Made by a program: the position numbers and the translations under genes. A stretch of 64,000 bases of DNA from Gonatopus flavifemur (Eukaryota > Arthropoda > Insecta > Hymenoptera > Dryinidae), in assembly GCA_018340375.1 (NCBI GenBank), contig JAFFJZ010000031.1, forward strand, positions 2,718,642 through 2,782,641. Direction: 5' to 3'. Below, piece after piece: positions 3,361-58,617 of the stretch (position 1 is the stretch's first letter; each line of letters opens with the position of its first letter). Under the pieces are notes generated by a model, which was not told the DNA's origin, ran no database searches, and saw only the letters and a list, made by a program, of their open reading frames with translations.

Positions 3361-3412
3361 CCCTACCCTCTGATGCACTAGCCGCCTTCGGCGCGCGCTT
3401 CGCGCGCGCGTG

Positions 3413-17699: not shown

Positions 17700-18513
17700 A
17701 CATGCATGAAATGCTTCGCTGAAATTATTTCGTTCAATGACTTATAGCAGAAAAAGCTTCGAAAAAAATATCTGTTCCACAACCAAAAGTTTATCTTCAC
17801 CCAGTTCACCTCTTACGCGTCAAAACTTGGTTACATTTATAATCGAATAGATCGTAATCCCAAAATTATGTCGCTTCATCCATCTCACCCTATACTAGTC
17901 ACAAAGAAAACCCTTGGCTATCTTCTAAATGACTCGTTAAGTTGGCTGTCAAGAGAATCTTTTGGTTATGAATCAGATCCTTCCTCAGCAAGCCTCTCAA
18001 GAAATACATCTGCGGTATCCTGCGGCTGTTTGTTGTTGGAATCGTGAGTGGAGTACTTATTCTTCCTAAATACATCAAGAATAGTACCGAAAAGCACCCG
18101 GAAGTATGAAAAAAACTCTCACGTTTATGTAAAAAGACCAGGAGGAGATGTATCATTCATGAAGCTGCTCTCAAACTATGGATAAATAATGGAAAAAAAT
18201 AACAAAAACTGTATCATGTACCTGGCTGATCACGATTCATGATAAATGGGAACAAATATTCTACAAACCGCTTCCAAATTATTTTCAGGTAAGGTGAATG
18301 GGACGCGATCGTATGCGATCAAAATCACGCGTTTGTGAAATTGTCAGATTACGGTCGATTTCATCGCGCTCAAATGTTCTTGTATGAAAAACATATTACT
18401 GCCTTCATATTCTACAATAATTGAAGTATCAAAAATGATCGACACCCCTTTGAATTCATCGTTTTGGAAAAATCGACTTTTGGCCAGGTTTTGGAGTCAA
18501 ATACTCCTATGTG
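17700..18513. other. Right non-coding part of the Transib element
   Basis: AT-rich DNA upstream of the transposase, ending in the right TIR (about 18480-18513). No further gene is recognised; short open frames have no domain I know. The transposase promoter would be expected here. Confidence 0.5.
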
Positions 18514-20182: not shown

Positions 20183-20206
20183 TTCATTAGGGATATAATC
20201 TCCAGT

Positions 20207-21042
20207 TTAATTCACTCTTTGCTGTTGGGCTTCCAATTCTTGGCTCATCATCTCATGAGAATGAGCGAAGAGATTGTACTTCCGCATTGTATAATCAATT
20301 TGTCGGAGGATCTCAAGGTTCAATTCAGAATCATAATTGAATCCGTGTTCAATAGCTTCATCGGCATCAAATATGAACAGCTGATCATAACGCGGTGGTT
20401 CATTTAGAGCAGGATGTAAAGCTGTAATAATTTGGTAATATATTTGTCCTTGAATTTTGAAACAATATGGAGCACGCCTGGACGACGGATTATTAACTAA
20501 ATTGGCATTCAATGAAGCAAACGGGAAAGAATTAATATACTCACGTATATGATTGGAAAATTCAACAGAATTTTCATCGTTCCCATCAAACAAAGCTTGG
20601 AGTTGTGGGGGTAGATCCGGCAATACATTGAGGATAAGTTCTCCATGACTACAACAATCATTGAATGAACTCTTCATATATGACACTTGTTCAGCCGCGA
20701 AATGTTTAGCATTGCAATATTTGCACAAAATATTCATTCGTCCAAGGTAATGTTGATCGATATGTTGTATAACACTTCCATCATCATATACATCAATATT
20801 ACTCACGCCTTTTTCACGGTTCCTGTAAATTTTTTGCCGTTCACGATTTGTGAGATACGTGTCATGGTTAGGAGTACGATTTGGAGAGCTTTCTGATGCA
20901 TTATGGGTGTCTTGAACTTGACTGGAATTAAAAGTACGCGAAACGTGATTACCCAAATGACGACGTTGATTTTCAACATGTCTTTCTCGCTTAAGCCTTT
21001 GGAATCCTTCTTCTTCTTCTTTATATAATTCAAGATCAAAGC
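20207..21042 (-). pseudogene. Helitron N-terminal region
   Basis: Open minus-strand frame ending at a TAA at 20207-20209, just upstream of the Rep frame. Seen: TYLTNRERQKIYRNREKG, a zinc-finger-like ILCKYCNAKHFAAEQ...CCSHGE (typical of Helitron N-termini), SFPFASLNANLVNNP, APYCFKIQGQIYYQI and DYTMRKYNLFAHSHEMM. The frame is open upstream to about 21042 without a clear ATG (FDLELYKEEEEGFQRL), so the true start or an upstream exon is not resolved. Joined in sense to 19874-20182 but separated by a stop or frameshift. Confidence 0.8.
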
Positions 21043-21045
21043 AAA

Positions 21046-24000
21046 TATTTCAAACTATGAGAACCTGAAAGGATTGCAATAAGTACCAATATTATAATTC
21101 AAGAAATTCAATTTTCATCAATTTAAATAATCATCAGCATCCCTATCATCATAATCGTCGTCGTCGTCATCATCAATCCTCAAATTTTTGAATCTTTGCA
21201 TATAATTTTCAGCCAATCACTCTGGAACCTGAAACAAATCAAATATAATCATCAATATTGATACATTTGTTCATGCGATTCACGAGAAGACTTCCTACTC
21301 ATACAGATTACTCTACTCATACGTCAGTCATATCGCTGTAACTTGTAATAGTAGTATTATTCCGCACAGCACAACGAATCGAAAGTAATTGATTAAAAAA
21401 AAGTAATCTATGATTGGAAAAACTCTCTCTAAATTTTTCATCTTCTTTTTTCGAACTATTCTGTTATGTGAGACACACTCACCATCAAAATCATTCTGTA
21501 ATGCTGTTGTAACGGAGTAATTACATTGAAAACTCCAACTACATTAATAAGTTTCGGAACATCTTTCAATATCGCGTAACATTGTATAATATAAAATACC
21601 GAAGCAATGAGAAACTTTATCAATAAAAAATAGTAGATAGTCTTCATTGGATCTCTGATCACGTAAATAGGGGGAGTGTGATTCCTTTTCACTCAAAAAT
21701 ATATCTCTGGAATTGTTCTTCAATAGAGCTACAAAGGAGAGATGAAAAATTCCTCTCAGTACTGATGGAGAGGTCCAGAAAGATGAAAAAGTCAAGCAAA
21801 TGTGTTCTCATTATTATTCCGTATGGCAATAAGGAGTTAGAATTCAGGAAAACTTTGTGTGGCCTGCGTGATTGAATCAAACCATTATCCATAACCCAAA
21901 AAACGAAGATTTTATTTTTAGTTCAGAGAATATATAAACTGCTGATGATTGAAAAAGTCAGAATTTAGAAGACGTCTTGAAATCATCAACATTTGGAGAA
22001 ATTAAATAGAAAATTTTTTTCATAAGATCATTCAAAAATCTTTCTTGAATAGAATTTTGCAATTTTTCTATCGTCAATACTTCATATATTCTCTAGACTA
22101 AGAAGGAGATCTTTTGTTTTCGGGTTGAGGATAATCTACCGGCCTGGATGACTCACGCCGATTATGAAGGTGTTTTTTGAATTATAATTTTCCATCGCCA
22201 TAAAGAACGATATCCACAGCGCATTAGCATATCCTTCCTATCTCTCCGAATTCTTTCATCATTGCCAAAAAGGATTTCCCATCTCTTCACTTTCTTCGGA
22301 AGAGAACTCTTGAGATGTTACATCTCCAAGTCAGATAAATCAAACCCCTCCTTAACTACTTTGCTAATTAGTGTATTGATTACCTGCTATACTGCCTGTA
22401 ATGTTTACAAAAACCATGCGTTTGCCTGGAAAATTTTTCGCCAACGATGGAATGTTCACGACTATTCAGTTGAAACAAAGTAAATCTTAATTGACAGGCT
22501 CTGTTATAGAAAAACAAAAGGGTATGTATATATTCGTGTATTGTTCATATTAACCGTCAACAAAATCGTTGAAGTTTGAATTATTTATGGAGACGAATTC
22601 AGAATCAGACAGGAAAATCAAACCAGAAACTGATGAGAGGGTTCAAAAATTGATTTCTTCGAATGAAATATACAAATTAGACGAATTATATTACAAAAAT
22701 CAAAGAGGTGAACAATTTAGTATTTGTGTATTCGTTGATAACCTTTTTTGTGAGGTACTTTTGCATTCGACGATAATTTCCATGAACGGTTCAAACTTCA
22801 ACATCATCAACATCCAAGTGCACAAAATCTCCGAAGTAACTTCCATCCTAGATATATTTATGATGAAAATGGCAAGAAGTTTCTATATGAAATTTCGATA
22901 CACGAATTTTTCGAATCACTTCTCTGAATTCGCACCTTGAACTAAGCAGAGAAATTTGCTTTTTTATTTCGTAATGGTTTAGACCTAAAATGAATTAATT
23001 TTGGAAGTTCCTTCGAAATGTTGAAATTAAGAAGACATAACACTATTTCCTCGGTAAAATGAAACAAAAAGAAACTCTGAACATGTACCTGAAACCTTCT
23101 CTCAACATTATATTCGAATCATTCAATTTTCTTCAATACAGTACATCTAAAATCGCGAATGAAACCACCGTGTCGTTCCAATTCCGTAGGTTTGGTAATT
23201 GGGTAACTCATAGCACTCTTTTCTACAATATATATTCCCAAAAAATCACGGCACTTGTGCAATCCTTCAAAAAACATGTTACATACATAATTAGTAGGAT
23301 AAATACAAAGTAGCAGGCCTGAATACAAACAAAAAAAAGATAGTTTCAATTCAACATCCGTTTTCTTTTGTACAACTAAAACAATATTTTCCTTCCCAAA
23401 CAAACTTGGTTTGAATGAGGGAAGTGTTGTTTCAGTTCAAGAGAAATCAGTGGTACCAGATAAAACGCGGCGCACAACGTTGATTGGCTCATCCTTTTGA
23501 AGACTACAATATGAATAGTTGGCTCCACATGAAGTACCCAATCAGCAAAGACACCGCATTTTGCTCGCAACAGTGAGAGAAATTTAAAACCTAAATTTCA
23601 CCTAAGAGAATATTCTCTCAATTTGAAACCAGTTTATTTGAAACAAGGAGAATCTGGTTTTGAATATTCTTGTAGTTTGATACAAAATAACAGGAGTTGA
23701 ATGAACAAAACTTAGTTCTTCTATGCAGAAATACAATATATAAAGTAGTACGTAATATACCAATGAGAGCAGTTAGTCAAAATTACATTGGACTTACATC
23801 AAAATGATGTTATTTTGAAACTCTTGAAGCTATCATGAAGAACCCACACACTCACAATAGGCTAATGTATATACGCGGAACTTTGGTGAATGTCAACAAT
23901 CAGCGCCAGGATTGGCACGTAATATATTCCTGAGTATTTTACATAGTTTATGACACGTAAGAAACCGAGTCCCTTCCGCATAAAACAAACCCCCTGCCTT

Positions 24001-30835: not shown

Positions 30836-32874
30836 TACAGGGCGTCCCATTTGAAACAGGACAGCTGAATAACTCTTCAGGGAATGGAGGGGGAAAAAGA
30901 TTGTTCAGATAAAAGTTGTAGGGTTCGAAGGGGGCCATAAGATGGTGACCTTGAATTTGACCTTGAGGTCAATTTTGAGCATAATTGATGGTCAAAGTAT
31001 GTTTTTTCAAATGGAAAACCCTACGTTCGACCTCAGAAATGGAAAGAGCGGAAAATTTTACGTCCGAATATGGTAACATATCAGGTCATTTAGAGGTCAT
31101 TTGAAAGTCAAAAAACCATTTTCCATGGATTTTCACGGAAAAGCCTCAAACGAGTTGTTTCTCTGACCAAAGTTATCAAAGTTGAAGTGGAACCCCACGT
31201 TTCGACCTTGAATTCGACCTTGAGAACGATAATGAATGCCAAATTTGAAACAATAATTAAAAAATTATTTATTTTTCCAGTTCGTCGTTTTATAATTACA
31301 GATGGCACAAATCCGTTGACGGGTAAGACACACTTATTGCAGGAGATGTTCGAATTGACCGCCATTTACTTCGATACATAACTCCAGCCGGCGTCGAAAG
31401 TTTCCAAGAACAGACTGAAAAACTTCTGCACGAATATTCGCAATCGCGTATCTGATGCGTTGTTGTAGATCCACAGGTGTTGTTGGTCGGTTGGTATAAA
31501 CGACATTTTTTACGTAACCCCACAAATAAAAATCTAGAGTGGTGAGATCAGGAGATCTTGCCGGCCACAGTACAAATCCACCTCGACCAATCGAACGATT
31601 GGGGAAAAGGATATTTAGATAATCCCTCACACATCGAGCAAAGTGTGGTGGTGCACCGTCTTGCTGATACCACATCCTCTGCCTAGTTGCTAATGTCACA
31701 TCTTCCATGAGAACTGGTAATCCATTCTGTAAAAACTGTAGATAATTAGGACCGTTAACAGTTCCATCAAAAAAATACGGCCCAATAACTTGATTGTCTA
31801 GAATTCCACACCAAACATTCATACTCCACCGATGCTGATGATCAACTTGTTGAGTCCAGTGCGGGTTTTGCGCTGACCAATAGTGGCTATTGTGACGATT
31901 TAACAAGCCAGTACTTTGAAACGTTGATTCATCACTGAAAAGAACATATCGAAACAAATCGGGCGTTTCGTTCAACCTCTGTAAAGCCCAATGGCAAAAG
32001 TTAACCCGATTCTGCATATCTTGTTGAGATAATTCTTGGGTCAGTGTGATGTGGTACGGATGATATTGAGCAGCTTGTAGAATTCTGTGTGCCGTACTGC
32101 GTGGAATACCCAAATCGCGGTCAATATCACGTAAACTAACATGAGGATTCATGTGTATTATTGCTAAAACAGCAACGCATCGAGGGTCGTTAAAGTTGAA
32201 ACCTTGATTGTTTCGGCGTTGACCAATCCTTCCTTGTCGACAATTTCTTTCAACTTGGCGAATGACTTCTGGAGAAGGATGATGCTGCCGATCTCCAAAC
32301 CGCTCTCTGTACAATCGTGACGCTCTTTGATACACTCCGCGACACTCGCCCAAGATCATTAAAATATCAACACATTCGTTAGGTGAATAAACCATTTTGA
32401 ACCCGCACTTACACCGTAAACGATGAAAACTGCTTAATGATCATTTTCGTACTGATATGAAGAATGAACTCTGAAGGTTAGTTCTGTTTACTTTCAATTT
32501 AAGGTCGAAACGTGGGGTTTCACTTTCACTTTGATAACTTTGGTCAGAGAAACAACTCGTTTGAGGCTTTCCCGTGAAAATCCATAGAAAATGGTTTTTT
32601 GACCTCCAAATGACCTCTAAATGACCTGATATGTTAACATATTCGGACGTAAAATTTTCCGCTCTTTCCATTTCTGAGGTCGAACGTAGGGTTTTCCATT
32701 TGAAAAAACATACTTTGACCATCAATTATGCTCAAAATTGACCTCAAGGTCAAATTCAAGGTCACCATCTTATGGCCCCCTTCGAACCCTACAACTTTTA
32801 TCTGAACAATCTTTTTCCCCCTCCATTCATTGGAGAGTTATTCAGCTTTCCTGTTTCAAATGGGACGCCCTGTA
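30836..32874 (-). mobile_element. mariner-superfamily element with ~378-bp TIRs
   Basis: Both ends read TACAGGGCGTCCCATTTGAA inward and are flanked by TA. The inverted repeats are long: 30836-31214 and about 32497-32874 match nearly base for base, differing by scattered substitutions. A single open transposase frame (31334-32395) occupies the centre on the minus strand. TA target, mariner-type DDD transposase and a total of 2.04 kb fit Tc1/mariner. The close match between arms and the open frame point to a fairly recent insertion. Confidence 0.9.
31334..32395 (-). CDS. mariner-like DDD transposase, intact frame
   Basis: 353-residue transposase with an ATG at 32395 and no internal stop. N-terminus: helix-turn-helix-like segments, with VSLRDIDRDLGIPRSTAHRIL at residues 87-107, for TIR binding. 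Catalytic motifs: LFSDESTF (D155), YQQDGAPPHF (D246) and ARSPDLTTLDFYLWGYVK (D283), with 36 residues between the second and third aspartates, so not the classical DD34D spacing. WCGILD at 195-200 precedes the second Asp as usual. It cuts and pastes the surrounding TIR-bounded element. Of all coding regions in the window this is the only transposase frame that looks potentially functional, although the presence of the frame says nothing about expression. Confidence 0.9.
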   Translation of the reverse strand: MVYSPNECVDILMILGECRGVYQRASRLYRERFGDRQHHPSPEVIRQVERNCRQGRIGQRRNNQGFNFNDPRCVAVLAIIHMNPHVSLRDIDRDLGIPRSTAHRILQAAQYHPYHITLTQELSQQDMQNRVNFCHWALQRLNETPDLFRYVLFSDESTFQSTGLLNRHNSHYWSAQNPHWTQQVDHQHRWSMNVWCGILDNQVIGPYFFDGTVNGPNYLQFLQNGLPVLMEDVTLATRQRMWYQQDGAPPHFARCVRDYLNILFPNRSIGRGGFVLWPARSPDLTTLDFYLWGYVKNVVYTNRPTTPVDLQQRIRYAIANIRAEVFQSVLGNFRRRLELCIEVNGGQFEHLLQ

Positions 32875-42359: not shown

Positions 42360-43278
42360 TGTTACGTTCCGACACGTAGTTCTGTCGAAATTTGAGAATC
42401 GGGTGACCTCGGAGGGTACGGAAAGAGTTGTGACTCTTTATGATGGATCGAGGGCTACCACGATTGGGTTAGCGCTGGCAAAGGGTCGCTAGGAGCCCTC
42501 AACTTTCCCTCTTAGTCTCTCAAGCATTATATTTTTCTTTCAAATATTAACAAATCAAGTAAATTCATTCGAAAAACCGATCTTTTTCTCTTTCCTTTCC
42601 AAAATAATTCATGATTCAAATTTGTCAAACAAATGAATGAATTGAGAATAGTATCGAGTTTGAAATAGTAGGCATATCATTTGTAGCTGACTTATCACGG
42701 AAGTTCTATGAAATTCACCGGGACAAAGGTCTCTTTGTTTCATTTTGCTTGCAACTCAGTATCCGCCATATCTGGTTACATTACTTATCAACCGTTTTCC
42801 CATGGCTCCTACGTGACGGAATGCCAGTTGCGGCCATCATGGTATTGACGAAAAAGTGCAACTATGCGAGAACTGATTCGTTTGTCTAAGTGAGCTTCGA
42901 CACACCCTTCTTCTTGTAGGAGGACTGTCGAAGTTTGCTTCGAAGACGAGGAAAAAGAAACGTCACTCTCGTTTGCCTTTTTGAGTCGCGAAGTTGCGCT
43001 CGGTACTTCGAAGTCCGCGTTTTCATCAAGTCTTTCGTGAAAGAAAATATAGAAGGAACTTAGACGTGTTATCTCAATTTTGTCGAGTTTCATCGTTAAC
43101 TCGTGTCAAATCTACATCTGTGCAGTAATCTATTTGTGAACTATTTTTGGATAATAAGTGACATAAAATTGTCAAAGTGAAATAAACTAAACCAAAGTGC
43201 ATTCAAACCAAAATTACGGTGTAATCATTCTTCGTTTCCTGGGAGCATCTTCCTCATCCCGAATTAATCAAAGGAAAG

Positions 43279-43357
<79 letters not shown>

Positions 43358-43609
43358 TTCCGTACAAGCAGTCGGTAATTCGAATATACGAGAAAAGGTA
43401 GGAATCTTTCGTTATCGTTTCCATCCAATTAATCCTGACAATCAGAGAGATTTGAATCAACCATCCTGTATAGGATGAAAAGACAAATTTTCAATTAAAA
43501 TATTCGAAGATCAATCAAATTCGAAATTTGTATTGTTACGTATCGTTATTATACAAGGTTACTCGTATAAATCTGAATTCAGTTTCGAAGAAAACGACAA
43601 TACGTAACA
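42360..43609 (+). repeat. 5' LTR, 1250 bp
   Basis: Starts TGTTACGTTCCGACACG, ends CGACAATACGTAACA; 7-bp inverted tips TGTTACG/CGTAACA. Contains a long GA microsatellite (about 43276-43353, one GGG interruption) that is much shorter in the 3' LTR. It should hold the promoter and polyadenylation signals; an AATAAA is present near 43182. Confidence 0.95.
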
Positions 43610-43614
43610 AAAAC

Positions 43615-43634
43615 TGGTCTCAGAAGTGCGGGAT
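43615..43634 (+). promoter_or_regulatory. Primer binding site
   Basis: TGGTCTCAGAAGTGCGGGAT begins five bases after the LTR. TGG pairs with the tRNA CCA end, and the downstream GCGGGATCGA would pair with a T-arm of the form TCGATCCCGC, so the primer is a tRNA. Leu-type is my best guess, unproven. Confidence 0.75.
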
Positions 43635-46219
43635 CGATTTTCATCCCCGTTGATTGTAATCTCTCAAATGAATGTGGAATTCGAATTGGAAAATTTTCTT
43701 GAAAACGACTATCATAGCATTCCTTCAAATAACCCTGTTATTCTTGTCTCATCTTTGGAATTCATCTGATGTTCGAAATTCAAGGATTTCAAAACTCTTT
43801 GAATTTCAAACTTTTATTTTCAAAATCCAAAATTTCTCAAATTCTCAATTGTTCAAATTTTTTATAATCAACCGAATTTTTGAGAAAGTTCAAAATTTTA
43901 TTTCAAAAATCCAGAATTCAAAAATTTTTGAATTTTCATTTTCGAAACATAGAATTCCAAAATTTTCTCGAGATCCAAAATTTTTACAATTTTTCGGAAT
44001 TTCTCGAAATTTTCTATTTTGAAACAATCCTTTCAAATCTTTCACAGTTTCCAAAAAAATTCTCAAAATTTTTTCAAATTCTTATTTTCGAATTCTCATA
44101 CTTGTACATTTACTTTTTGCCGGATCGTTCCATATGGATGTATTGTATGTCAATATTTCGTGTATGCATGCTTGCTTTCCAGAATTTTAAGTGCATGTGA
44201 ATTTAACGAAATGAAGTGGTAGTGAAGATAATAGGTTTTCCAACATAAAATTCAGGATTTGATTATATGGTGTAATATTGATTATCAGAGTCATTTTCTT
44301 GGAAATTTTGATATATATTTTCATATCATTTTGATTAAATTTTGATATCAATTATGAATTTTGGGATTTAAAATAATGTAAAATAGTGGGAATCTATGAT
44401 TATAGGAATATCATGATTTAATGACAAAATAGGAAGTTATCATTCTCGTTTTGAAGTTTTGAATGATGGATCAATAATTAATTAAATCATTAAACAATTA
44501 GATGATTCTGACCTCATTGTTTTGAAATTTCGGGAAAATCGTGAAAATTCCAATAAAATGTGTGAAGTCTGGTGCGATTATAGGTTGTGAAAATTTATTC
44601 AATGAACAGAACTTATTTCAGAAGTTGAGTGACTACATTTATAGAATTTTGTGCTAAGATTTCGATTTTGTCTGCAGTGTTGAAAATTCAATTTTGCACA
44701 ACTTTCGGTTTCCAAATTGGGAGTGAAATAGCAATAGAATTCTGCTCGAATAAATATTCATGTAAGGTTCGAAATCATTTGGGAGACGTTAAAATTTGAG
44801 TGTTCGAACTGAAGAATTCTATTTGTGAGAATTTGCGTAGTACAAAAGTCTTTCGTAATTTGAATATAATCTAGTGGAAATTCAAACGTGACTGTTGAAT
44901 CCACCGATAAATCAACGAATTCAGAGTCAGTTATAGGCTGTTTGAATTACAAATTTTTCAATTTCAAACTCATCTAATATTGCTGAACAATACATGACTC
45001 ATGATAACATTTTTCTTACAGGAATTTATCATTGGCATGCGCAATTGATTCATTGCATTTCTGTGTATGTGTATATCCCAAATGTTTTGTGTCAAAACTG
45101 AACTCGGATTGAAATTTTGTCAACTGACTCAATATTGTCCATAATTGTGTCGTTTTTGATTCTGAGAAATGAGAAATGAATTGGAATTTTTGATTTCTGA
45201 ACAAAATAGTAAATTGGAAATTCACGTCGGAATTTAGATTTTCCTCCAAATAAATAACATCTCATAATGAATTAGAAAACCAGAGTTCAGATTTGAAATA
45301 CTTTCTTGTTTTATGTATGTGTAATTACGTCACAAAACGTCTTATGTTTCTCTGTGGCGCTCAAATTAATTGTTAATCAGAGAACATAGGGCCTCGAAAT
45401 TGTGCTAGGTACATATGGGTGGGAACCTATATATGTAAGTATATCTTGTCTGAAAATTGTGTTCTATTCCCACCAAAACAATGTCAAACTATCATTGTTA
45501 TCAAATCAATGAGCAGATTCTCGAGAACTTGCTCCATTTAATAAAATTCTGATCTGAGTCACGAATAGAGTAAGTTCAAATGTATCTGAGTTGAATTGAT
45601 GATAAGAACAGAAATTTTCCTCTCACTATCGTGAATGAGAAGATTTATGTATATAGGAACCTACGCGATTCTTTGTCACTAATACTATCAATATTGAAAT
45701 CTTGTTCGCGCAGATAGCGTATCTAAACGAACTATCGGTGTTCTATTGGAGAAACAATTGGACCTAAAAGCGACTGTTTCACTTGATGAAAATTTGCAAA
45801 TCGGATCCAAGTCCCGAGTGAAATAGTTAGGAAGATCTACCTCATTGAATGAAGAAGATAGAATTCAATAATCAATCAAAGGAAAATACTAACCATACAG
45901 TGTAAATTTTGTTCAAGTAAGTCGTTTTCAAGGAACTGAATATACTAGAGGTATGATATTCAAATCGATCAATATAATTCATTGATTACAAAACAGGAGT
46001 TGAACATATTTCCCTCGAGTTGGTTCACCAAACTTTGAGATTATCGTAATTAGTGTGATCAATTCGTGAAACCATCATTAGGTCAAAGTAAACGTGAATA
46101 TTTCGTTTTCCGTATAAGATTTCGTATAAGGTCATTGATTTTCCCTAGTTGTACAGTATATTATTATTCCAAATAAAACGCCTGACAAAACTGCAGATCC
46201 AACTACCAGTCGCGCGAAT
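43635..46219 (+). other. Untranslated leader of the LTR element
   Basis: About 2.6 kb without a recognisable gene. 43800-44110 is low-complexity (TTCAAAATTC-type motifs) and its open frames are artefacts. Near the end, a pyrimidine-rich TTTTCCCTAGTTGTACAG (about 46140-46157) could be a splice acceptor before gag; the gag frame stays open upstream of its ATG to about this point. Confidence 0.6.
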
Positions 46220-47490
46220 ATGACCCTGTCCGAAAGCATGATGAAATCAATGGCAGAATGTTTTTCTTTGCAACAAGGAATTTTGGGTATACCCTATTTT
46301 GATGGAAAAAAGGTTCCTCTAAAAGATTTTCTGCAGGACGTTAGGAATGGTGCTGCATTAGTGGCTCCGGAATTGGAAGGTAGCTATGTTAGAGCGGTTT
46401 TGGCTAGATTAAGAGGTTCGCGCGTGATAGTACGTATGGTAAAACTTTCAATACTGCCGTTGATTTGGTAAAACATCTGAAGGAAAGATATGCTCCGTGT
46501 AAAACTTTTCCATACTACCAACACGAAATTGAAAAAATTCGTATGAATCGCGGTGGAACCGTCGATGATTTTTACGATAGATTGAATTTATTACTGAACG
46601 GTGCAAAAATCGCGTTACAGGATAAATACGAGAATAATGTAGAAGAGATGTTAAAACCCGTAAAAGAATGTGTGTTAGAATCTTCCATATGAGGACTGCC
46701 AGACGAATTGGCTAGGGCTGTAGATATTAGAGATCCAGGAGATTCAGACCATGCTTTAAAAATCGCAGTAAAAGTAGAAAATAAGATCTAAACTGGAGTT
46801 ATTCCGGGAGGAGAAACTTCTCGTGTTCCTTTCTCCCGAGAGAATGATTTTCGCCGTGATTATAGCGAGGATCGTGGAAATCGTAGTTATCGTACATGTA
46901 ACATATCTAATTCACCAGAAAACTCAAGATCTCCAAGTCCTATTCCATCTACCTCTACTAATAAGGGTCCGACAGGAATTTTGAAACGACCATCTAATAA
47001 TGAACCATCTTCACCCAATCAATATCCTTCGAACGTACCATATCAATCATTCTATCCCCCAATGCCATATCCATACGATCCTTATTTTCCACCGCAATTT
47101 CCGAATCCATATGGACCTTATTCACCACACATGCCTCAAAATCCATATCCACATCCACATGACCAAAATCTTCACAGTCCAGAGGACAGAAAATTAACTA
47201 CTTTCGGAAATAATCGTTATCAGAGTAGATCCCCTTCACCTTCGTTTAATAGATCTTCAAATCAAAATTCATACTCGCCGAACCGTCAATTTCCATCAAG
47301 AGATACGAGTCGTGAAAATTCACCTATGAGAACTCGTTCTGATATTTCAATCAAATAGAAACAATTCTTCTGATAAAAATTCTAGAGATTCTTCAAACCA
47401 AACCAGGACTCGGAATGCCGACGCGATGACGAGTCGGAACCCAAAATTAGAGCGTCTAGCAACGGTCAAATTCCTAGAGAGCGGGGAATA
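46220..47490 (+). pseudogene. gag: gag (broken)
   Basis: Structural polyprotein region. ATG at 46220. Capsid-like features: YFDGKKVPLKDFLQDV near the N-terminus, then MVKHLKERYAPCK, GTVDDFYDRLNLLLNGAK and GLPDELARAVDI. The C-terminal half is rich in Pro, Tyr, Ser and Asn (46981-47355), with no CCHC zinc knuckle, as in errantivirus-type Gag. Breaks seen: a frameshift near 46435, TGA at 46690-46692, TAA at 46789-46791, and a TAG at 47356-47358 with the S/N/R-rich tail continuing in another frame to about 47490. Position and order support gag. Confidence 0.85.
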
Positions 47491-47561
47491 GATGATGAGG
47501 ATAACTTATCCCCTAAAGTTTGGATGTTTTCTAGAGAATTGCGTCACGGTAATGCAAAATT

Positions 47562-50500
47562 TTTATAGATACTGGCGCTGATGTCAATATGATAAAGTTG
47601 AATGCTTTAGATGAAAATGTAGTGGTTTCCCTCCATGATTCGATTTCTTTAGTCGGAATAACGCCAGACAAAATCGAAACATTAGGAACTGTTGAGACAG
47701 AATTATTAGAAACACCTGTTAAATTTCATGTAATAAAATCATCAATTCAGTTGAACTGTGCAAGAATTTTAGGAGAAGAATATTTGAGGCAGGAACAGGC
47801 AGAAATTTCATTCGCACATAACACTTTGGTAACTCAGAGTGATCCAATAAGACCCATACGTTTCATTGGTGAAAAAAATGAAAATCAAAATTTCAATAGG
47901 AGAAATTTGAAACCACGAATTTTACATTTACAGGCTCGTATGGAAAAATCAATTCCAATAGATGTCATAAATTCAGAATTGTGCGAAGGTTATCTACCTC
48001 GAATCGAAACTCCAGATGGAATTTATATAGGAGAAGCGTTAGTTTCAACCAATGAAGAAGGAGTTTGTCATGTCCTAGCGATAAATACTTCAGAGGAAAA
48101 CATCGAAATTGAAATTCCTCCACAAGAATTTGTACCTTTTGAATATCATTATGTAGATAACGAATCATCGGAATCCGAACATGGAGAGAAAGAACTTACA
48201 ATTCAAGATAGAGTCAATAGGTCTAATTTAATTTTGAATAAACTGAATTTGAAAGACCTAAATAAGGAAGAAATTAAACACGTGGTCGATATTGTGGAAG
48301 AATATCCATTTCATTTCTTGTTCGCTGGTGATAAATTGCGATATATTCCTCATAGCAAACATAGAATTTTTGACGGAAATAAACCCGTCAACACAAGGCA
48401 GTACAGATTTTCTCCCATTCATAAAGACGAAATAGAGCGTCAAATCCACGTTGAACTCAAAAATAATATGATCAAACCATCTACTTCTCCATATAACTCT
48501 CCCATCTGGATAGTTCCGAAGAAACCAGATCCACAGGGTAATCCGCGTTGGAGAATGGTAATAGATTTCCGAAAATTGAATTCGCAAACAATAGGAGATG
48601 CATATCCACTTCCTAACATGAATGAAATTTTAGATCAGTGAGGGGAAGCAAAATACTTTACAGTGATAGACCTCGCTAGCGGATTCCAACAGATTTTAAT
48701 GGATCCGAAAGATAGACACAAAACCGCTCCCACAACTCCACATGGCCATTACGAATTCATTAGGATGCCTGAAGGATTGAAGAATGCACCTGCCCCTTTC
48801 AAAGAATGATGGACAATGTTTTACGAGGTTTACAAGGGATAGAATTATTCGTTTATTTAGATGGTATAGTAATTTTCGCGAAGTCACTTGGAGAACATAA
48901 GAGGAAAATTCATAGATTATTCAAAAGATTAGGCGAAGCTTAGATAAGTTTACAGCCGGATAAGTGTCAATTTTCGAGGAAAGAAGTCGTATATTTGGGC
49001 CACGTGATTACCCAAGATGGGGTGAAACCAGATCCAAGAAAAAAAGAGCCTGTAAAAAAATTTCCCAGACCGCAAAATCAGGAAAATATCAGACAGTTTT
49101 TAGGATTAGCAGGATACTATAGAAGATTCATCAAAAATTTTGCAGAAATAGCGAAACCGTTAACCGAACTATTGAAGAAAAACTCAAAATTTATTTGGAC
49201 AAAGGAACATACTGAGAGCTTCAAGAAATCGCGCAAAGCACTATGTACAAAACCGATTCTTCAATATCCAAATTTTGATAAAGAATTCATGTTGACAACT
49301 GATGCGTCAGATTTGGCGATCGGCGCAGTGCTCAGTCAAAATGATGATGGTTTCGATTTACCTATAGCATATCTATCGAGAACTTTGACGAAACCTGAAC
49401 AAAGTTACTCTACAACAGAAAAAGAATGTTTAGCTGTTTTATATGATATAGTACACTTCAGACCATATCTTTTTGGCCGTAAATTCACTTTGTTCAGTGA
49501 TCATGAACCGTTGAAATGGATAGATTCAATAAAAGATCCCGCACGACGACTTGTTCATTGGAGATTAAAATTACGCGATTATGAGTATAACTTTGTACAC
49601 AAACCGGGAAAACTCAATACCAATGCTGATGCTCTTTCGCGAAACCCTGTAAACCAAGAAAATAGCTACAGCTCCGAAGGATTTGATTTGGATTCAAGTA
49701 CAGAAAATAGTTCCTCTAGTGATAGAGAAAGTTCAGATGTTCAGAATACCGATAAAATACTGACGTTCAAAAAGAAACACGCTACCTTAGCGAAATCACA
49801 TAAATCGGAGAAAAAGAAAGTAGTAATTTCAGAAAATAAACCGACTAGTTCAAAATCTAAGATCAAAGAAAAATTAACTGAAATAGAATCACGTGAACGT
49901 ATACATAGTGCTCCCAGTTCTTCTAAAGGTGATGCTCCACGTAAAAATAAAAATCCTAGGTCACCTACTAGTTTGGATTCGAGTTCCATAGCTGGTCGCA
50001 CTAGGGCCAAATTGAAACATCAAATCACAAAACCCATAGGTCCAAAAGTGAATCCTTCGACTTCTCGGGTAGAAAATCCAATTGATTCGACATCCGACGA
50101 AGAATCGGATGCAGGAAAGGTTAACCTGCCTATACATAGAAGATGAAAAAGCGTGTTACCGAGTCTCGAGGTTCCACAGGTACCTGAAGAGCCGAAGGAC
50201 AGGGAACACGTAGGAGTCGAGGAACAGATGGAGAATGAAAATCCAGAATCACCCACTGGAACCGAGATCATGATCGAGTTACCCGACAAGGGTGATACAG
50301 ATAATGAAGTTTTTGAAAAAGAAAATAAGCCAAATGAAGAAGAGTTATCTTTTGATTTTAAGGAATTACAAAAATCTTTTGAAAAATTTGATCAATCCTT
50401 ACGTGATAAAAGCCACTTTTTTGAAGAAGAAGGAGGAGAAGAAGAAGGAGCGATAGGAATTCAAATACCTGGTACTATTTCTGAAGGAGAATCAGTAGAT

Positions 50501-52497
50501 GATCTGGCTCAGCAAATTTTATTTGAACAAGATCCTTATGATACCGAGGATGACGAAATGGATAGAAGAATACAAAATTTAGCTGAGAAGGTCAGGAAAG
50601 CTGAAGAGAGGATAGAATTGAAACTCAAGGAACAAATTAGCCAACCAACCACTTCGAAAAATATCCCTGAAAACGAGGAATTAGAAATCAGTAATAGAAC
50701 CGGAAATCAATCAGTAATTCGAAAACAACCCCAGAACCATACTATATTTACACCTTCAGTGATTTCGCAACCCTTAGCTTTTTCTACGCCGTTAGAGAAA
50801 GATGTAACTCTAAAGGTAAAAACACTAGTAGTTCCAAGGCGAATAATTCAGTCAAATAAAAATTCCAATAGAAATTCTACAGGAATTCAGATCAATGACT
50901 TAGTACCCCCAGATATCGACCCCATCAGTCCATTGAATTTGGGACGAGCTTTGCAAGACGCGAAGTTTATGAAATATTCAGGGAGAATCTCACGTATCAA
51001 AAGTCGAATATTGTGCATTTTATTTCCTCAGACTGTGTGCTAATTACTCCCATCAATAAATTATTGTTGGATGTTGGAATTTCAGATTCAGAACAATTGA
51101 AAGGAGTTAAACCGAAATTGGGACAAGTGTTAGTAACTAAAGAGGGAAAACATAGAATTTTCAGTATAATTTTGAAAAACAGATGTTTTGATAAAATTTG
51201 GGAAAATGATTTGATCCTCGCTTCTGAAAATTCAAGAGAAACCTTGTTAAATTTGAATGTGAAGGAAATTAGAATGTCGAAAAATGAAGATTTTATGGAC
51301 GTCATCCCTCAAGGTATATTAATAGAAATATTAATGAATATTTTTGAACGAGATTATATAGAAATTACCATCTGCTACGGTAAAGTTGAGATACCCTCCG
51401 AAGAACTCCGTTCTGGTATAATTGCAGAATACCACGGAAGTTTGATAGGTGGACATAAGGGAATGAATAAAACGTATCGTAGAGTTCGTGAAAAATTCTA
51501 TTGAACAGGTATGAGGAATGATATTCAAAATTACATCCGTAATTGCAATAGTTGTCAGAATCAAAAGTTGATAAGAGCCAAAATTAAAGAACCAATGATT
51601 ATAACCGATACCCCGATAGAAGCATTTGCAAAAGTTTCATTAGACACCGTTGGTTCATTACCAATAACCCCCAGTGGGAATAGGCATATTTTAACTTTGC
51701 AGGATCATCTTACAAAATTTTGCATTGCAGTTCCCATTTCAGACATAAAAGCTGTAACCGTAGCTCATGCTATGGTAACTAATTTGATTTTGCAATATGG
51801 AGCACCCTTAGCTATATTAACTGATAGGGGCACAACTTTCGTAAACAAATTATTCACACAAATTGCGAAAATATTCAAAATCAGTGATTTAACTACTTCT
51901 GGATATAGACCTCAGACGAATGGTAGTTTAGAAAGGAGTTATATCGTTTTAACAGAATATATAAGCCATTATTTGTCTGATTTTGATGATTGGGATAAAA
52001 TTGTACCTTTTGCAATATTCTCGTATAATACCTCAGTTCATGAAGCCACTAACTTTACACCTTTTGAATTAAATTTTGGTAGATTGGCACGAATTCCAAC
52101 TTCTTTCCCCTCGGGAGAAAAATTAATCACATATGATTCTTATGCACATGATTTGATTTCACGATTGATAGAAATGCAAACAATAGCTGGGAAAAATTTG
52201 ATAGAAGCGAGAGGACGATCAAAAATTCATTACGATCAGAAAGCGCGACCATTCCAAGGGGAAATAGGAGATTGAGTGCGTGTCCTGGTGGAACCAAAAC
52301 GAGGAAAATTCACTCCCGAATACCATGGTCCATATAAAATTGTCGGTATATTTGAGGAGGGAAATATTTTATTGAAAGATTCTAACGGAAAACTCTTCAC
52401 AAAACATGCAGATAAATTGGAGTTGACACCCGAAAATGAAGGGGGTAGTGATTTCTCTCTTTCTCGTATTCCTGATGAGAACGAATGGGAAAAGTAA
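47562..52497 (+). pseudogene. pol: pol: protease, RT, RNase H, integrase (broken)
   Basis: Polymerase polyprotein. Protease active site FIDTGADVN (about 47562-47588); RT fingers with WRMVIDFRKLNSQTIGDAYPLP; palm [13 protein letters not shown]; catalytic box YLDG (48854-48865) where the family has YLDD or YVDD; RNase H with LTTDASDLAIGAVLSQ and YSTTEKECLAVLY; a long charged spacer; integrase HHCC zinc finger (HGSLIGGHKGMNKTYRRV...C..C) and the DDE core with SLDTVG, LTDRGTTF and QTNGSLERS. Breaks: TGA 48639, a frameshift near 48806, TAG near 48940, TGA 50144, a frameshift near 51020, TGA 51502 (replacing Trp) and TGA 52273 (replacing Trp). The last 60 bp overlap env. Confidence 0.92.
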
Positions 52498-54415
52498 CTA
52501 CCAAATCACTGAAGTGGACACTAACACCGGCTTATATTATGAAAGACTGTTCAACATCCGATTGCAGCGTGCTGAGTGGAGAGTGATAATAGTGATGGAC
52601 ACTGAAGAACTGAAAATTAAATTTCCATTCGAAACAGAACTTTTAAATAAAACTGACAAACTCTGTTTGAAGTACAAGTCACAATTCGAGTGTGACATAT
52701 CTTTGAGGAAAGAATACATAGACAATAAACTGCAAAAAGCTTTAAAAATCCATGAAGAAATAAAAATATTGCTCAGCGAAGTGGTGAAGCCACGTTCAGA
52801 GAATTATCCTACAAGAACAATAGTTAAACGACTAGTACCTTTTGGATTCGTGGGAACACTCATTAAAGATCTTTTTGGAACACTATCCACAGAAGATTCG
52901 GACCATTTTAAAAATGAAATCAATCAGCTTCACAGTGATAATAAACAAATAGTGCAGATCGTGAACAACCAGACTCATATAATTGCAAGTAATTTACATC
53001 GATTACAAGAAACCATTGAGAATCACGAAAGAGCCATAGCCAAGAATACTTAAAGATCAAATTCACTAATGAAAGAGTTGGAAAAATGGGTAATTGAATA
53101 ACATTTAGCGGACCTTCAATATGTAATGAGCCAATGTATAAATCAAATAGAAGAATTTTTAGATCACTTCCTGATTGAGGGTCGTGATCTTGTAAATACA
53201 TTATATCTGGCACAAATCGGAAAAGTGCATTCGTCATTGTTAAAACATACAAAATTGAAGCAAATGATCGAAGAAATTCATAGTAGTGTGCACGAATTTG
53301 GAATACCAGTACCCCATCAAAGCTTAAGCATCGAAGAAATTTCGGACATTTCTACAGTATCCACCTCACGAATGGATAAAAGACTCGCTTTCACTTTGCA
53401 TATACCATTGGTAGACCGGATAAATTACGATATTTTTCGTTTACACTCCTGGCCAGTAATACAAAATTTAACTGGATTCACGGCATCTGCGTACATAGAA
53501 CCAGAAAACACATATCTTGGGGTGAATTACGCAAACGGATTGTACTTCTCAGCTAACGAAAAGTTCATTACTTCATGTCATCGAAAGTATAAACTTTGCA
53601 CTCCAAGCCTTCCGTTACGAAAAATAGAAAACTCCGAATCCTGTGAACTGATGTTATTATTGAATCCAAAAGCTGATAAATTACATAATTGTAATATTAA
53701 ACTGAATATGAATCATCAGCCTTACTGGAATAAATTAGAAATGTCGAATTCTTGGCTGTTTGCATTAAATGAAACAGAAAGTTTACAATTAATTTGTCCG
53801 AACGAAAATTTAGAACTTATAACTATTCAAGGATCTGGAATATTAGAATTTAACCCAAATTGTGTAATCAAAAGTGCCTATATCACTTTAATGAATCCTA
53901 AAATATTGGAAAGTACCGAACAATATTATTATACTCCATTAATCACGTTGAACATTTCACTTGTGTCGTCTACAATATCGAAATCAATAGACTTAGGAAT
54001 ATTCAATGGAACAATAGGTCCGATCGTTGAGAAAGCTTTTAAGAACGCTAATATACATTCACTAACGGACTTGGAACGAAAATTAGAAGAAATAGGGTCC
54101 CACTCGCGCAGTAAACAAAAACAGTCCAATTTCAACTTTTACCTTATTATGATGCAGATTATCACTGTAGGTGGTGGTTTTACGTACATTTTCAAGGGAC
54201 AATTATGGAAACTGACATTCGGACTTATGATTGAACGGCTGAGATGTTGCGGCGTATCAGGGAGGAACAGAGCTCAAGGGACCTGTCGCGCCCGAGATCC
54301 AGAGACAGGAGGACATTCGGAAGAGAACCTTGATCCAGACCCGCGACCCAGAGGAAGTGCGGGAGACGCTCGCCCAAGGCAGAACTTGCCAACTCAACAG
54401 GCTCTCATTAACTGA
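52436..54415 (+). pseudogene. env: env-like glycoprotein gene (two in-frame stops)
   Basis: Envelope gene of the errantivirus kind, overlapping the end of pol by 62 bp in another frame. ATG at 52436; residues 2-15 form a hydrophobic signal peptide. At residues 127-150 a basic site is followed by a hydrophobic Gly/Phe-rich segment, the arrangement of the cleavage site and fusion peptide in baculovirus F-type proteins; a heptad-like region with Asn-glycosylation sites follows. TAA codons at 53051-53053 and 53099-53101 interrupt the frame. The ectodomain continues from 53126, with cysteines, and a membrane segment lies at about 54140-54215. An unusual GC-rich Arg/Gly/Pro tail runs to the TGA at 54413. 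Not functional as it stands. Confidence 0.85.
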
Positions 54416-54540
54416 GTTCAATACTTATAATGTTGAACATTTTTCCTGAGACAACTTTCCTCATTACTCTTATTCAGATATAAAACTATCATTTTAATAA
54501 CATGAGAATTAATATCCTTGGTTGTGATGCTGGTTGTTAG
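54416..54540 (+). promoter_or_regulatory. env/F-box spacer with possible splice acceptor
   Basis: 125 AT-rich bases between the env stop and the ATG of the extra gene. The sequence ends GATGCTGGTTGTTAG directly before the ATG at 54541, so a 3' splice site could place this ATG first on a spliced subgenomic RNA, in the way errantivirus env is expressed. The pyrimidine tract is weak. Confidence 0.4.
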
Positions 54541-56235
54541 ATGAATCCAGGGGTGAAAACATCCAGCACCCGGAAGCTGTTCGTGGCAAGATTGAAGCAG
54601 AGAACCAAGCGGAAACACCTGGAAAAATTATCCAAATCTTTTGGCGCAAAGAGAGGCGTAGTGGTCCGAGGGAGCGAGTGTAGCACGGGCTTCGTCGAGT
54701 TCGACTCTGCAGAGGAGGCTAACAAGGCGTTAATCTGGAGCGCGGAACGGGAGGTGGTCTTGCACGGGAATAAGCTGATCATCGAAAAAGCTGACCCCTG
54801 GCAGGAGGAAAGATCGGTGCGGAGAAGACGAGAGGACCCTGGTCCTGATCCCTTGGAAGGGTTGAACATCAGATTCCCCGGAATGCTACCGGAACTTCCT
54901 GTTGAGGTTTTAAGCGGGATAATCTCTGAGTTGTCGTACGTTGACCGTGCACGGATGGAGCGGGTTTCTCGAGTATGGAGACAGAGTAGTTTGGATTCCC
55001 ATCGGGCAGGAAGGGTCTTGGACATAACCGATTGGAGGTGGAGCGACAGCTGGAACATGCACTCCGCGCAGTTGCGTTGGGTGCCGAAACGTTCGCCAAA
55101 CCTGGAAATTCTGAAAGTAACCAACAGCCAACGAGCAGAACATCTGGAGCCGCGGATCTTCACTATCGTAGCGAAGTGTTGCACGAAGTTAAGGGAAATC
55201 GACACCACCGGAGCTACGGTGAGGACTGGATTTTTGGAAAAATTAGCTGAAAACGTGACATGTCTGACTTCCCTCCGATTGGGAAAATGTATGGGTCCCG
55301 TTGATACTCAATTGGAAAGGATTATAACAAACAATCCAGGTTTGATCACCATCCATATGAAAGACAATTTGATTACGGGCGAGTCACTTAAGCGCATGGC
55401 TAGAGATTTGGATTCACTGGAGTTCATCGACTGCAGCTCTCTCAAAACGGAGGCTTTCAACACCCTGTTGTTGCGTACGAGAGGGTTTAATTCGCTATCC
55501 GTAAGTCAGTGCCTTGGCCCGAGAGATAGTCAGGTGTTGGGAGCTCTTATCATGAATAACGAGCTGGGGAAAACCATGCAGGCTATGAAATTCCACAACT
55601 GTCAGTTCGCGATGCCATTACCACTTGAAGAGGAGGATGAACTACCCGAGGGAGAAGTGCGAGGTCCGTGGGCGGAATTACCCGTGGGACCAAAGTCGCA
55701 TTCTTTACCTACAATATACAACAACTTGACCGTCCTGCACGTGACTTTCTGCGGGTGGATAAACAACAGTTTCATCATGGAAGTTGGCCTCTCATTGAAA
55801 TCACTGGAGGACCTAGACATAACGGATTGTACGAACATTGACGGCTACGATGCTCTGGACCCCTTAGCAGGATTGGATCACCTAAGAATCCTAGGCATGA
55901 GCAATCTCCACATCGAAGTAGGAGGTGGTACCTTACGAGAGTTGAACCGACTCCAGAGAATCGAATGTAGGGACAATCCCTGCATCACAGATGAGGACAT
56001 TTGTGGAATGATGTGACGAAATGACCAACTGCAACACCTGAGTCTCGAGGGCTGCAGCGCTATTGGGAGGGCTGTAGTGGATACTGCATACGAGATTGTC
56101 CAACGACCTACACCCGGGCCCAGTAGAGCGCTCGATATCTTCCTCGGCGGGACGACAGCAGTGCGACATCGAAGAGACAGGAGAAATGTTTTCCTCAACA
56201 TTTATTATGAGCGAATGACGAGCCCCTTGTTTTAG
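54541..56235 (+). pseudogene. Captured RRM-F-box-LRR gene inside the LTR element
   Basis: Extra gene between env and the 3' LTR. ATG at 54541; open for 491 codons to a TGA at 56014-56016, after which the same frame runs 72 more codons with LRR-like QLQHLSLEGCSAIGR to a TAG at 56233-56235. Domains: RRM at residues 11-86 (RNP2 KLFVARL, RNP1 STGFVEFDS); F-box at 116-154 (LPELPVEVLSGIISELSYVDRARMERVSRVWR without gaps, fitting the LPxEVLxxI...V..VW pattern); then leucine-rich repeats at 186-490, AMN1-like with C and D turns (LTSLRLGKC, LEDLDITDC). F-box proteins bring LRR-bound targets to SCF ubiquitin ligases; the RRM suggests an RNA-linked target or location. GC content is clearly higher than in pol. 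One premature stop against many in gag/pol/env. Function inferred from domains only. Confidence 0.85.
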
Positions 56236-57393
56236 TCGCGGGTGGTTTGAAAAGTATTAATGCGTGAGCATATCTTTTTCGATACGATTCAATCCGGCTG
56301 CGGCGACGCAGGGGTCTCTATCTGTTCGTAATGGTTACTGAAGGCGTCGTCCAGATGTAAGATTGAATTTATGTGCGGGGAGTGATACACCATTACTATT
56401 TAAAACTATCTCATTACACACATCGATTAGTGCATGCGTGTGTGCATATGCGAGTATGCACATGTATATGCATATCCGATTTTTAGTCACGATCGATGTG
56501 GAGTACAGAAATGAAATTGAGGTAGTGAGTGGTGAATGACTCTCCTCGCAAGATGGAACCGGTATGATCTGCGGACAAAAACAAATGCGTTGAAAGGAGA
56601 TACATTCTCTGAATTCTACTCATGTCGATTAGTATAGATATACATCAGGTTCAACCTAGATCGGCATGGGGGTATTGATGCATAAAAGAAAGCCTGCGGG
56701 TCATATTGGGAAGATATAGACCTTATCCGGATTGGAATATTTATATATATACATTGAACATAGTTGGATCACCCACTGATGGTGTCATCTCCTTCGAACA
56801 GAGTTGGAATTCGATTTGACTTTCACACACACACGCAAGTCGAAGTTGACTCAGTTCGCCCAATTTTGGAGTGCTTATCTTCCTAAACCGTAATTCAGCA
56901 TGAATGTCTCAAATTGAGCTCTCATGTTGATTAGTGTGAGAACACATCAGGTTAAACCTAGATCACCATGAGAAGACTCATCGTAGACTCATGACACACT
57001 ATATCGCAGTCAGAGTGCATTTCGGAATTGAATCGAAAATTTCGGAGGGTCAACTCGGGTTCCAATTGAGTTTGTGAGGAACAGACCTTGCTACGGATAT
57101 TCGGAATGATTTAATCGAAACCAGATTTGGGATCGAAAAACATTCACATCGACGTGAATTGAGACATTGTATCAGGGGTGGGGTCTGATATAACGGAGAG
57201 GGGCGACAGTACCGACTTCCGGCGTTTCCTTTTCCTATTTGTATTGTATTGAAACAACTCTTACTCAATTTAGTCCGAAATAATGTGAGAGGCGCTGGAA
57301 CGCGAGGTCGCTCGAATCAACATGTTCTATATTGTGTTATGATTGGCTGGCATCTCCGAGCCTTAGATTGTAATCGTCGGGACAACGATTGCA
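56236..57393 (+). other. 3' untranslated region of the LTR element
   Basis: 1.16 kb without a recognised gene. Short near-repeats occur, for instance CATCAGGTTCAACCTAGATC near 56645 and CATCAGGTTAAACCTAGATC near 56947, about 300 bp apart. Possibly includes 3' sequence that came along with the captured gene. Confidence 0.55.
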
Positions 57394-57408
57394 GTAAGGG
57401 GGGAGAAG
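57394..57408 (+). promoter_or_regulatory. Polypurine tract
   Basis: AAGGGGGGAGAAG immediately before the 3' LTR TG, the expected plus-strand primer position. Confidence 0.9.
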
Positions 57409-58617
57409 TGTTACGTTCCGATACGTAGTTCTGTCGGAATTTGAGAATCGGGTGACCTCGGAGGGTACGGAAAGAGTTGTGACTCTTTATGATGGATCGA
57501 GGGCTACCACGATTGGGTTAGCGCTGGCAAAGGGCCGCAAGGAGCCCTAAACTTTCCCTCTTAGTCTCTCTAGCATTATATTTTTCTTTTAAATATTAAC
57601 AAATCAAGTAAATTCATTCGAAAAACCGATCTTTTTCTCTTTTCTTTCTAAAATAATTCATAATTCAAATTTTTCAAACAAATAAATGAATTTAGAATAG
57701 TATCGAGTTTGAAATAGTAGGCATATCATTTGTAGCTGACTCATCACGAAAGTTCTATGAAATTCACCGAGACAAAGGTCTCTTTGTTTCATTTTGCTTG
57801 CAACTCAGTATCCGTCATATCTGGTTACATTACTCATCAACCGTTTCCCCATGGCTCTTACGTGACGTAATGCCAGTTGCGGCCATCATGGTATTAACGG
57901 AAAAGTGCGACTATGCGAGGACTGATTCGTTTGTCTGAGTGAGCTTCGACACACCCTTCTTCTTGTGGGAGGACTGTCGAAGTTTGCTTCGAAGACGAGG
58001 AAAAAGAAACGTCACTCTCGTTTGCCTTTTTGAGTCGCGAAGTTGCGCTCGGTACTTCGAAGTCCGCGTTTTCATCAAGTCTTTCGTAGGAGGGATATAG
58101 AAGGAACTTAGATGTGTTATCTCAATCTTGTCGAGTTTTATCGTTGACTTGTGTCAAATCTACATTTGTGCAGTAATCTATTTGTGAACTATTTTTGGAT
58201 AATGAGTGACATAAAATTGTTGAAGTAAAATGAACTAAACCAAAGTGCATTTAAACCAAAATTACGGTGTAATCATTCTTCGTTTCCTGGGAGCATCTTC
58301 CTCATCCCAAATTAATCAAAGGAAAGAAAGAAAGAGCGAGAGAGAGAGAGAGAGAGAGAAAAAAATTCCGTACAAGCAGTCGGTAATTCGAATATACGAG
58401 AAAAGGTAGGAATCTTTCGTTATCGTTTCCATCCAATTAATCCTGACAATCAGAGAGATTTGAATCAACCATCCTGTATAGGATGAAAAGAAAAATTTTC
58501 AATTAAAATATTCGAAGATCAATCAAATTCGAAATTTGTATTGTTACGTATCGTTATTATACGAGGTTACTCGTATAAATCTGAATTCAGTTTCAAAGAA
58601 AACGACAATACGTAACA
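57409..58617 (+). repeat. 3' LTR, 1209 bp
   Basis: Same ends as the 5' LTR. Shorter mainly through a contracted GA repeat (about 58333-58358). Followed by the ATAT duplication at 58618-58621. Confidence 0.95.

Follow-up and report, generated by a model that had tools for sequence, protein, structure and literature searches.

The window, a 64,000-nucleotide stretch of Gonatopus flavifemur DNA, contains one errantivirus-like element of 16,258 bases (42360-58617), and this element carries an extra gene without introns that sits between env and the polypurine tract and encodes an RRM, an F-box and leucine-rich repeats (LRRs). The anatomy and history of the extra gene are well supported, and we consider it very probable that it is an old, selected accessory gene of host origin. 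That it is the old accessory (fourth) gene of one errantivirus-like clade and would act through a ubiquitin ligase is a reading of its sequence to which we give somewhat better than even chances.

The LTRs of the element differ by 50 substitutions over 1209 aligned sites (1159 match; K2P 0.043), and an ATAT target duplication stands on either side. With LTRs, target duplication, primer-binding site, polypurine tract, RNase H, integrase and a Baculo_F env after pol, it is an errantivirus-like (env-carrying Ty3/gypsy) element. Its parts are:

42360-43609, plus strand: 5′ LTR, 1250 bp, TGTTACG...CGTAACA, preceded by ATAT
43615-43634, plus strand: primer-binding-site-like stretch TGGTCTCAGAAGTGCGGGAT (TGG...), starting 5 nt past the 5′ LTR
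46220-47358, plus strand: gag region with a broken frame and a proline-rich C-terminal part, assigned by position and by eye
47553-52275, plus strand: pol region, several open pieces, frame broken at several places
48995-50146, plus strand: RNase H (Pfam RT_RNaseH, E 1e-35)
51013-51504, plus strand: integrase zinc-binding domain (Pfam Integrase_H2C2, E 8.7e-8)
51511-52275, plus strand: integrase core (Pfam rve, E 3.2e-8)
52436-54415, plus strand: env (Baculo_F) in two pieces, one break near 53053-53102
54541-56235, plus strand: accessory gene with RRM (residues about 11-86), F-box (116-154) and LRRs
56236-57395, plus strand: 3′ non-coding stretch, 1.2 kb
57396-57408, plus strand: polypurine tract AAGGGGGGAGAAG, abutting the 3′ LTR
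57409-58617, plus strand: 3′ LTR, 1209 bp, followed by ATAT

The primer-binding-site-like stretch resembles what we take to be the 3′ end of tRNA-Leu. The env pieces 52436-53053 and 53126-54415 matched Baculo_F in Pfam with E values of 3.9e-14 and 5e-25; the env tail is GC-rich from about 54176, and a spacer of 125 nt separates env from the extra gene. The open RT piece of pol, whose frame is broken in the window copy, gave no significant RVT match in Pfam. Altogether, this copy has several breaks in gag and pol, one in env and one, an in-frame TGA, in the extra gene. ATAT is among the errantivirus targets named in the sections of PMC5408687 that we consulted.

A long low-complexity, probably disordered stretch at about 49700-51000, between RNase H and integrase, appeared by eye to be unusual for such a pol. 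The 3′ non-coding stretch contains a 50-nt near-repeat (80%; 56619-56668 and 56921-56970) for which a regulatory or structural role is possible. Outside the element, transposon-like ORFs were seen by eye at 755-3606, 8478-10147, 18412-21049 and 31334-32440 (LINE-, piggyBac-, Helitron- and mariner-like), and no host gene was recognised by eye elsewhere in the window.

The open reading frame of the extra gene in the window (54541-56016) encodes 491 amino acids and is ended by an in-frame TGA at 56014-56016. Past this codon the frame stays open to 56235 with similar codon-position composition, and this stretch is 88.9-93.1% identical in five close copies (L009-L012, L022). Since composition and identity are kept past the TGA, we concluded that the 491-residue product is a truncation in the window copy; the originally predicted length is that of the open reading frame but not that of the full product. 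Some other copies are open for 557-573 codons.

With the window protein, Pfam returned F-box-like above the cut-off (9.1e-6, residues 117-152), RRM_1 slightly below it (0.0011, residues 13-64) and LRR_4 below it (3.7e-5). When 8 copies were scanned singly (E up to 0.1), RRM_1 and LRR_4 were each found in 8/8, F-box in 7/8 and F-box-like in 6/8. An 8-copy profile matched the solved structures of a polyadenylate-binding-protein RRM (7e-13), FBXL2 (4e-9) and FBXL17 (8e-8). With this profile, the predicted assignments of RRM, F-box and LRRs are firm, which confirms the domain content of the original prediction. According to Pfam and the profile, the product has an F-box followed by LRRs, as in FBXL proteins (FBXL2, FBXL17, Skp2); unlike in these, an RRM stands ahead of the F-box, both in the element gene and in its host homologue (the C1 gene, see below).

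Residue conservation was counted in an alignment of 27 copies, the denominators being the copies with a residue at the position in question. In the F-box, W146 was found in 25/25 and E122 in 22/25 copies. The RRM has its RNP1 and RNP2 motifs, with F/Y at RNP2 position 2 in 24/24 copies and F at RNP1 position 5 in 22/24, and an aromatic residue at RNP1 position 3 in 0/24 copies with a residue there. These three positions are presumably those of the RNA-stacking aromatics. Because RNP1 position 3, a Y in the host gene, is not aromatic in the element copies, their products may bind RNA less well. Two single-sequence structure predictions had a mean pLDDT of 35 and 38, a confidence too low for use. 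In a large protein collection, no homologue was found among the 7993 top word-sharing candidates scored for the extra gene, the 937 for its residues 1-170 or the 3026 for the env piece, nor did viral contigs and a prokaryote genome collection contain one. Because even env gave no match there, these empty searches do not show that the gene is absent from other animals.

A search of the 636-Mb genome with the 491-residue protein gave 88 matching pieces at 62 loci, one of which is the host gene. This leaves about 61 element loci of the extra gene, some of them fragments; the locus counts are lower bounds, as only the best candidates were scored. The flanks were read for 27 copies, L001 (the window gene) and L009-L034. 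In 26 of these, env or a portion of it precedes the gene in the same orientation, which, together with the LTRs, ATAT, primer-binding-site-like stretch and polypurine tract of the window copy, bears out that the gene is inside the element, between env and the polypurine tract, as had been proposed. In the remaining copy, L028, the upstream 4 kb gave no env match. L013 and L014 are internally deleted and retain only the end of env, and in L033 env is separated from the extra gene by 2.4 kb. Downstream, a match to the window LTR, in some cases short, was present in 11/27 copies (L001, L009-L012, L018-L023), less than 1 kb being covered for L029-L034. In the pairs L015/L016 and L018/L019, homology stops at ...AACA, like the end of an LTR, 4.8 and 3.8 kb past the ATG; in other pairs of copies it ends less cleanly.

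The env piece matched 118 pieces at 109 loci in the genome, again minimum counts. In line with the original prediction, 46 of the 57 env loci at least 38% identical to the window env have the extra gene within 6 kb downstream, and in 38 of these 46 it lies at 250-700 nt. Of the eleven close env loci without a nearby gene, ten match over 369-864 bp of the 1050-bp piece, and the eleventh (C356), which is full-length, has an extra-gene match 9.8 kb further on. Among the distant env loci (at most 32% identical), 0/52 have the extra gene within 6 kb downstream. An env match within 6 kb upstream is missing at 16 of the 62 gene loci, namely the host gene, L013, L014, L028, L032 and eleven others; at L032, a short env piece was visible when the flanks were read.

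Some loci have been reduced considerably. In L013 and L014, most of pol and env is gone, as is gag in L013 within the stretch covered by the locus, yet the extra gene is kept, and in L013 it is an open frame of 564 aa. At L028, the extra gene (3352-5037, minus strand) is decayed and divergent and is followed by a repeat of about 270 nt.

Trees were calculated by a quick method with 27 rows for the extra gene, 20 for env and 18 for integrase, and many of their inner forks are open. As far as the rows overlap, the same five groups were obtained in all three trees, each with an SH-aLRT of at least 91:

Group A: window, L009-L012, L022; in the gene tree also L020, L013, L014
Group B: L015-L017
Group C: L018, L019, L021, L023
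Group D: L024-L027
Group E: L029-L034

L028 stands alone in the gene tree. No supported conflict among the gene, env and integrase trees was seen, and the extra gene is directly downstream of env in all five clades.

The extra gene is under purifying selection and evolves alongside env and integrase. Between groups its silent sites are saturated and its replacement sites are not. The window gene and two pieces of L020, an unsaturated comparison, gave dN 0.100/dS 0.925 and 0.132/0.918; pN was 0.166 and pS 0.739 for L001-L013, and 0.199 and 0.710 for L029-L031. For more distant pairs of the window gene, pN/pS was 0.37-0.50, with pS over 0.8. Within young groups the ratio was higher (0.3-1.1), as expected, because copies decay after insertion. 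The values for env were similar (L024-L001, 0.284/2.69), and integrase was slower (L015-L018, 0.080/1.96). Between L001 and L015, the RRM changed fastest, its dN being 0.70, against 0.42 in the F-box and 0.37 in the LRRs. Over 8 kb, a pair of copies in group B agrees at 98.3% and one in group D at 97.6%, so the amplification of gene-carrying lineages was fairly recent.

A host gene on C1 (L035, L036) was reached through the weakest genome match, 24% identical. Its coding sequence is split into six exons by five introns, all GT-AG, and comprises 566 codons, the exon boundaries being set by eye and the length counted from the first usable Met, the true 5′ end aside. The protein has an RRM (1.1e-14), an F-box (7e-7) and LRR_4 (7.5e-12) in Pfam. 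The proposed comparison with host F-box/LRR genes thus yielded an intron-bearing gene that is homologous to the element gene along its full length and has its three domains in identical order, as well as paralog loci. Against the profile of the element proteins, the joined C1 protein scored 167.9 bits, compared with 4.0 for the highest of 200 shuffles; among 1561 ORFs of the window, the best unrelated one had an E of 5. In alignments of 456-525 residues, the C1 protein is 22.7-25.3% identical to the element proteins, and both have an F(I/L)GGT motif near the end. Two LRR exons matched the profile strongly (1.7e-15 and 2.2e-15); the RRM exons alone matched it weakly (E 0.04 and 0.3), but collinearly. 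Because the identity is low and the RRM-exon matches are weak, a common function of the host and element proteins is not assured.

At least eight further loci, with exon-wise matches to about 137-349 and 421-558 of the host protein on one strand, were found when the genome was searched with this protein. The nine host-family loci, C1 included, are located on C1, C359, C24, C349, C68 and C99 and are multi-exon F-box/LRR paralogs. The three of the eight that we examined have an exon boundary ahead of a VC(K/R)RW motif, as in C1, and no RRM match within 2.5-kb stretches. Judged by summed exon score, the C1 gene is the closest to the element gene among the four loci read; in the last exon, however, one paralog scores at least as high. 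This diverse host family could itself be under conflict.

The candidate splice signals of the extra gene in the window are:

54509-54540, plus strand: branch/acceptor-like TTAAT...TAG, immediately ahead of the extra-gene ATG
45435-45922, plus strand: three donor-like GT[AG]AGT sites (45435, 45570, 45917) in the leader, upstream of gag, by consensus match only

The pattern CTAAY, 15-24 nt, YAG, 9-14 nt, ATG, which combines an insect-type branch motif with the acceptor consensus, was picked after inspecting 26 upstream stretches, of which 14 were tested. It was present in 7/14 sequences, from groups B, C, D and E, with a chance per sequence of 1.3-4.8% by shuffling. A weaker form, TTAAT...TAG, precedes the gene in the window and in L009, where 24-30% of shuffles contain a pattern of this sort, and in 5/14 (L011, L013, L020, L031, L028) the acceptor-like pattern is absent. 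Errantivirus env is produced from spliced RNA according to the part of PMC12992720 at hand. Judging by these patterns, the extra gene is probably expressed from spliced RNA as well.

We propose that an ancestor of the clade would have captured the gene once, via a spliced cellular mRNA, and that the gene would be expressed from a spliced subgenomic RNA of its own, joining a leader donor to the acceptor just ahead of the ATG. From the domains we infer a putative SCF-adaptor function with target-binding LRRs: the F-box would join the protein to the host SCF ubiquitin ligase, and the LRRs, perhaps also the RRM acting on RNA or RNP cargo, would select a target, whose removal, or shielding from the host relatives, would aid replication of the element. 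As a derivative of a host gene with this same architecture, the element protein may share, steal or block the substrates of that gene. Loss of the RNP1 aromatic and the fast divergence of the RRM suggest that this domain has changed its partner.

We give distinctly less than even credence to an accessory gene without ligase targeting, which would serve as a decoy against the host relatives or handle the element's own RNA via the RRM, the F-box being a leftover. Multi-exon host relatives are available as competitors for a decoy, and the RRM scored in all 8 copies scanned at E up to 0.1. However, the F-box signature residues are present in nearly all copies, across clades that are saturated at silent sites, whereas the RRM is the fastest-changing domain between L001 and L015 and misses one RNP1 aromatic.

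As to origin, the element gene is intronless and its homologue multi-exon, and it therefore most likely came from the spliced mRNA of a C1-like gene. An ancient RNA-mediated capture is the best reading of these sequences. The putative donor is a cellular gene of the C1 kind, and its descent from this host's own ancestor is a possibility. We regard the reverse direction, in which the host genes would descend from the element gene by domestication, as very unlikely. The direction is not readable from two sequences alone, but introns are present in the host genes, one at a position common to the four loci read, the host RRM matches the RRM family better (1.1e-14) than the best of 8 element copies (3e-6), and it retains the RNP1 aromatic.

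Ancient capture also has to be weighed against a recent event in which this element would have taken up a host gene, as suggested in the original prediction. The host-type origin was upheld, and GC of the extra gene in the window is indeed above that of pol. However, GC3 of the extra gene was 0.55-0.59 in a single representative of every group (env and integrase, 0.24-0.40) and 0.37 in the C1 host gene; because it is equal across five clades and lower in the host gene, GC cannot date the capture. Five clades with silent sites saturated between them carry the gene, 46/57 close env loci have it downstream, and its identity to the host gene is just 23-25%, so that "recent" had to be given up and such an event appears extremely improbable. 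Silent-site GC of the extra gene is about 0.57 in every clade despite AT-rich element neighbours; selection on RNA is one possible cause of this kept composition.

That a host retrocopy landed later in this one element copy, other copies lacking the gene, is rejected as having next to no probability, since the 13-nt near-repeat around the gene (54478, 56398), although target-duplication-like, was equalled in 7/60 shuffles, no A or T run of at least 7 is present in 54100-57420, and other copies carry the gene at this position too (46/57 close env loci; env in 26/27).

Errantiviruses and env-carrying gypsy elements such as ZAM and gypsy likewise have LTRs, RNase H, integrase and a Baculo_F env near the 3′ LTR, as described in the consulted portions of PMC12992720, PMC13172572 and PMC5408687. 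The window element differs from them in its length of 16.3 kb and in the host-type fourth gene between env and LTR, and those portions contain no mention of such a gene. ORFs downstream of env are known among the captured ORFs of LTR retrotransposons, and the planarian Burro elements have MATH/TRAF, BIR, BCL2 and RING motifs (PMC6431247, in excerpt). Like our element, Burro is thus a gypsy-like element that contains domains of host type with links to ubiquitin or cell death (same excerpt); unlike Burro, the window element has a separate full-length RRM/F-box/LRR gene, for which a cellular homologue exists in the same genome and selection was tested. DNMT genes were captured by retrotransposons in dinoflagellates and charophytes (PMC5890265, as far as the text at hand goes), which again is a host gene taken into retrotransposons, but it concerns another gene, other hosts and another proposed effect. 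In the library searched, no paper paired errantivirus with F-box. Capture of ORFs after env is a known kind of event, and an RRM/F-box/LRR gene in an errantivirus-like clade would be a new variant of it.

Complex vertebrate retroviruses are characterised by accessory genes whose products degrade host restriction factors. If our reading is true, the host-derived F-box gene would be a parallel in an errantivirus clade, outside vertebrates, with the host relatives still present. These elements may tamper with the protein-disposal machinery of their host, and the extra gene offers a direct route to the host factors that limit them and makes it testable whether invertebrate endogenous retroviruses counter silencing via ubiquitin. 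The slot after env may be a general accessory-gene site in the errantiviruses of this host. A wider scheme, which we put forward tentatively and hold to be rather doubtful, is that the slot between env and the 3′ LTR would be the accessory-gene site of "complex" endogenous retroviruses, where the SCF adaptor of one clade would hit a silencing or restriction factor or the parental host family and other clades would keep different small genes.

Four of the 52 distant env loci, L037-L040, were inspected; the env of these lineages is 26-30% identical to the window env. Their four post-env ORFs gave no significant Pfam match and no convincing match to the F-box profile. In one lineage (L037/L040, 1516-1953), a Cys-rich ORF of 146 aa follows env, with an acceptor-like atattattacag just ahead of its ATG. 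In another (L038/L039, about 1341-2440), env is followed by a 155-aa ORF with a CTYC..H..C motif and then by a second ORF.
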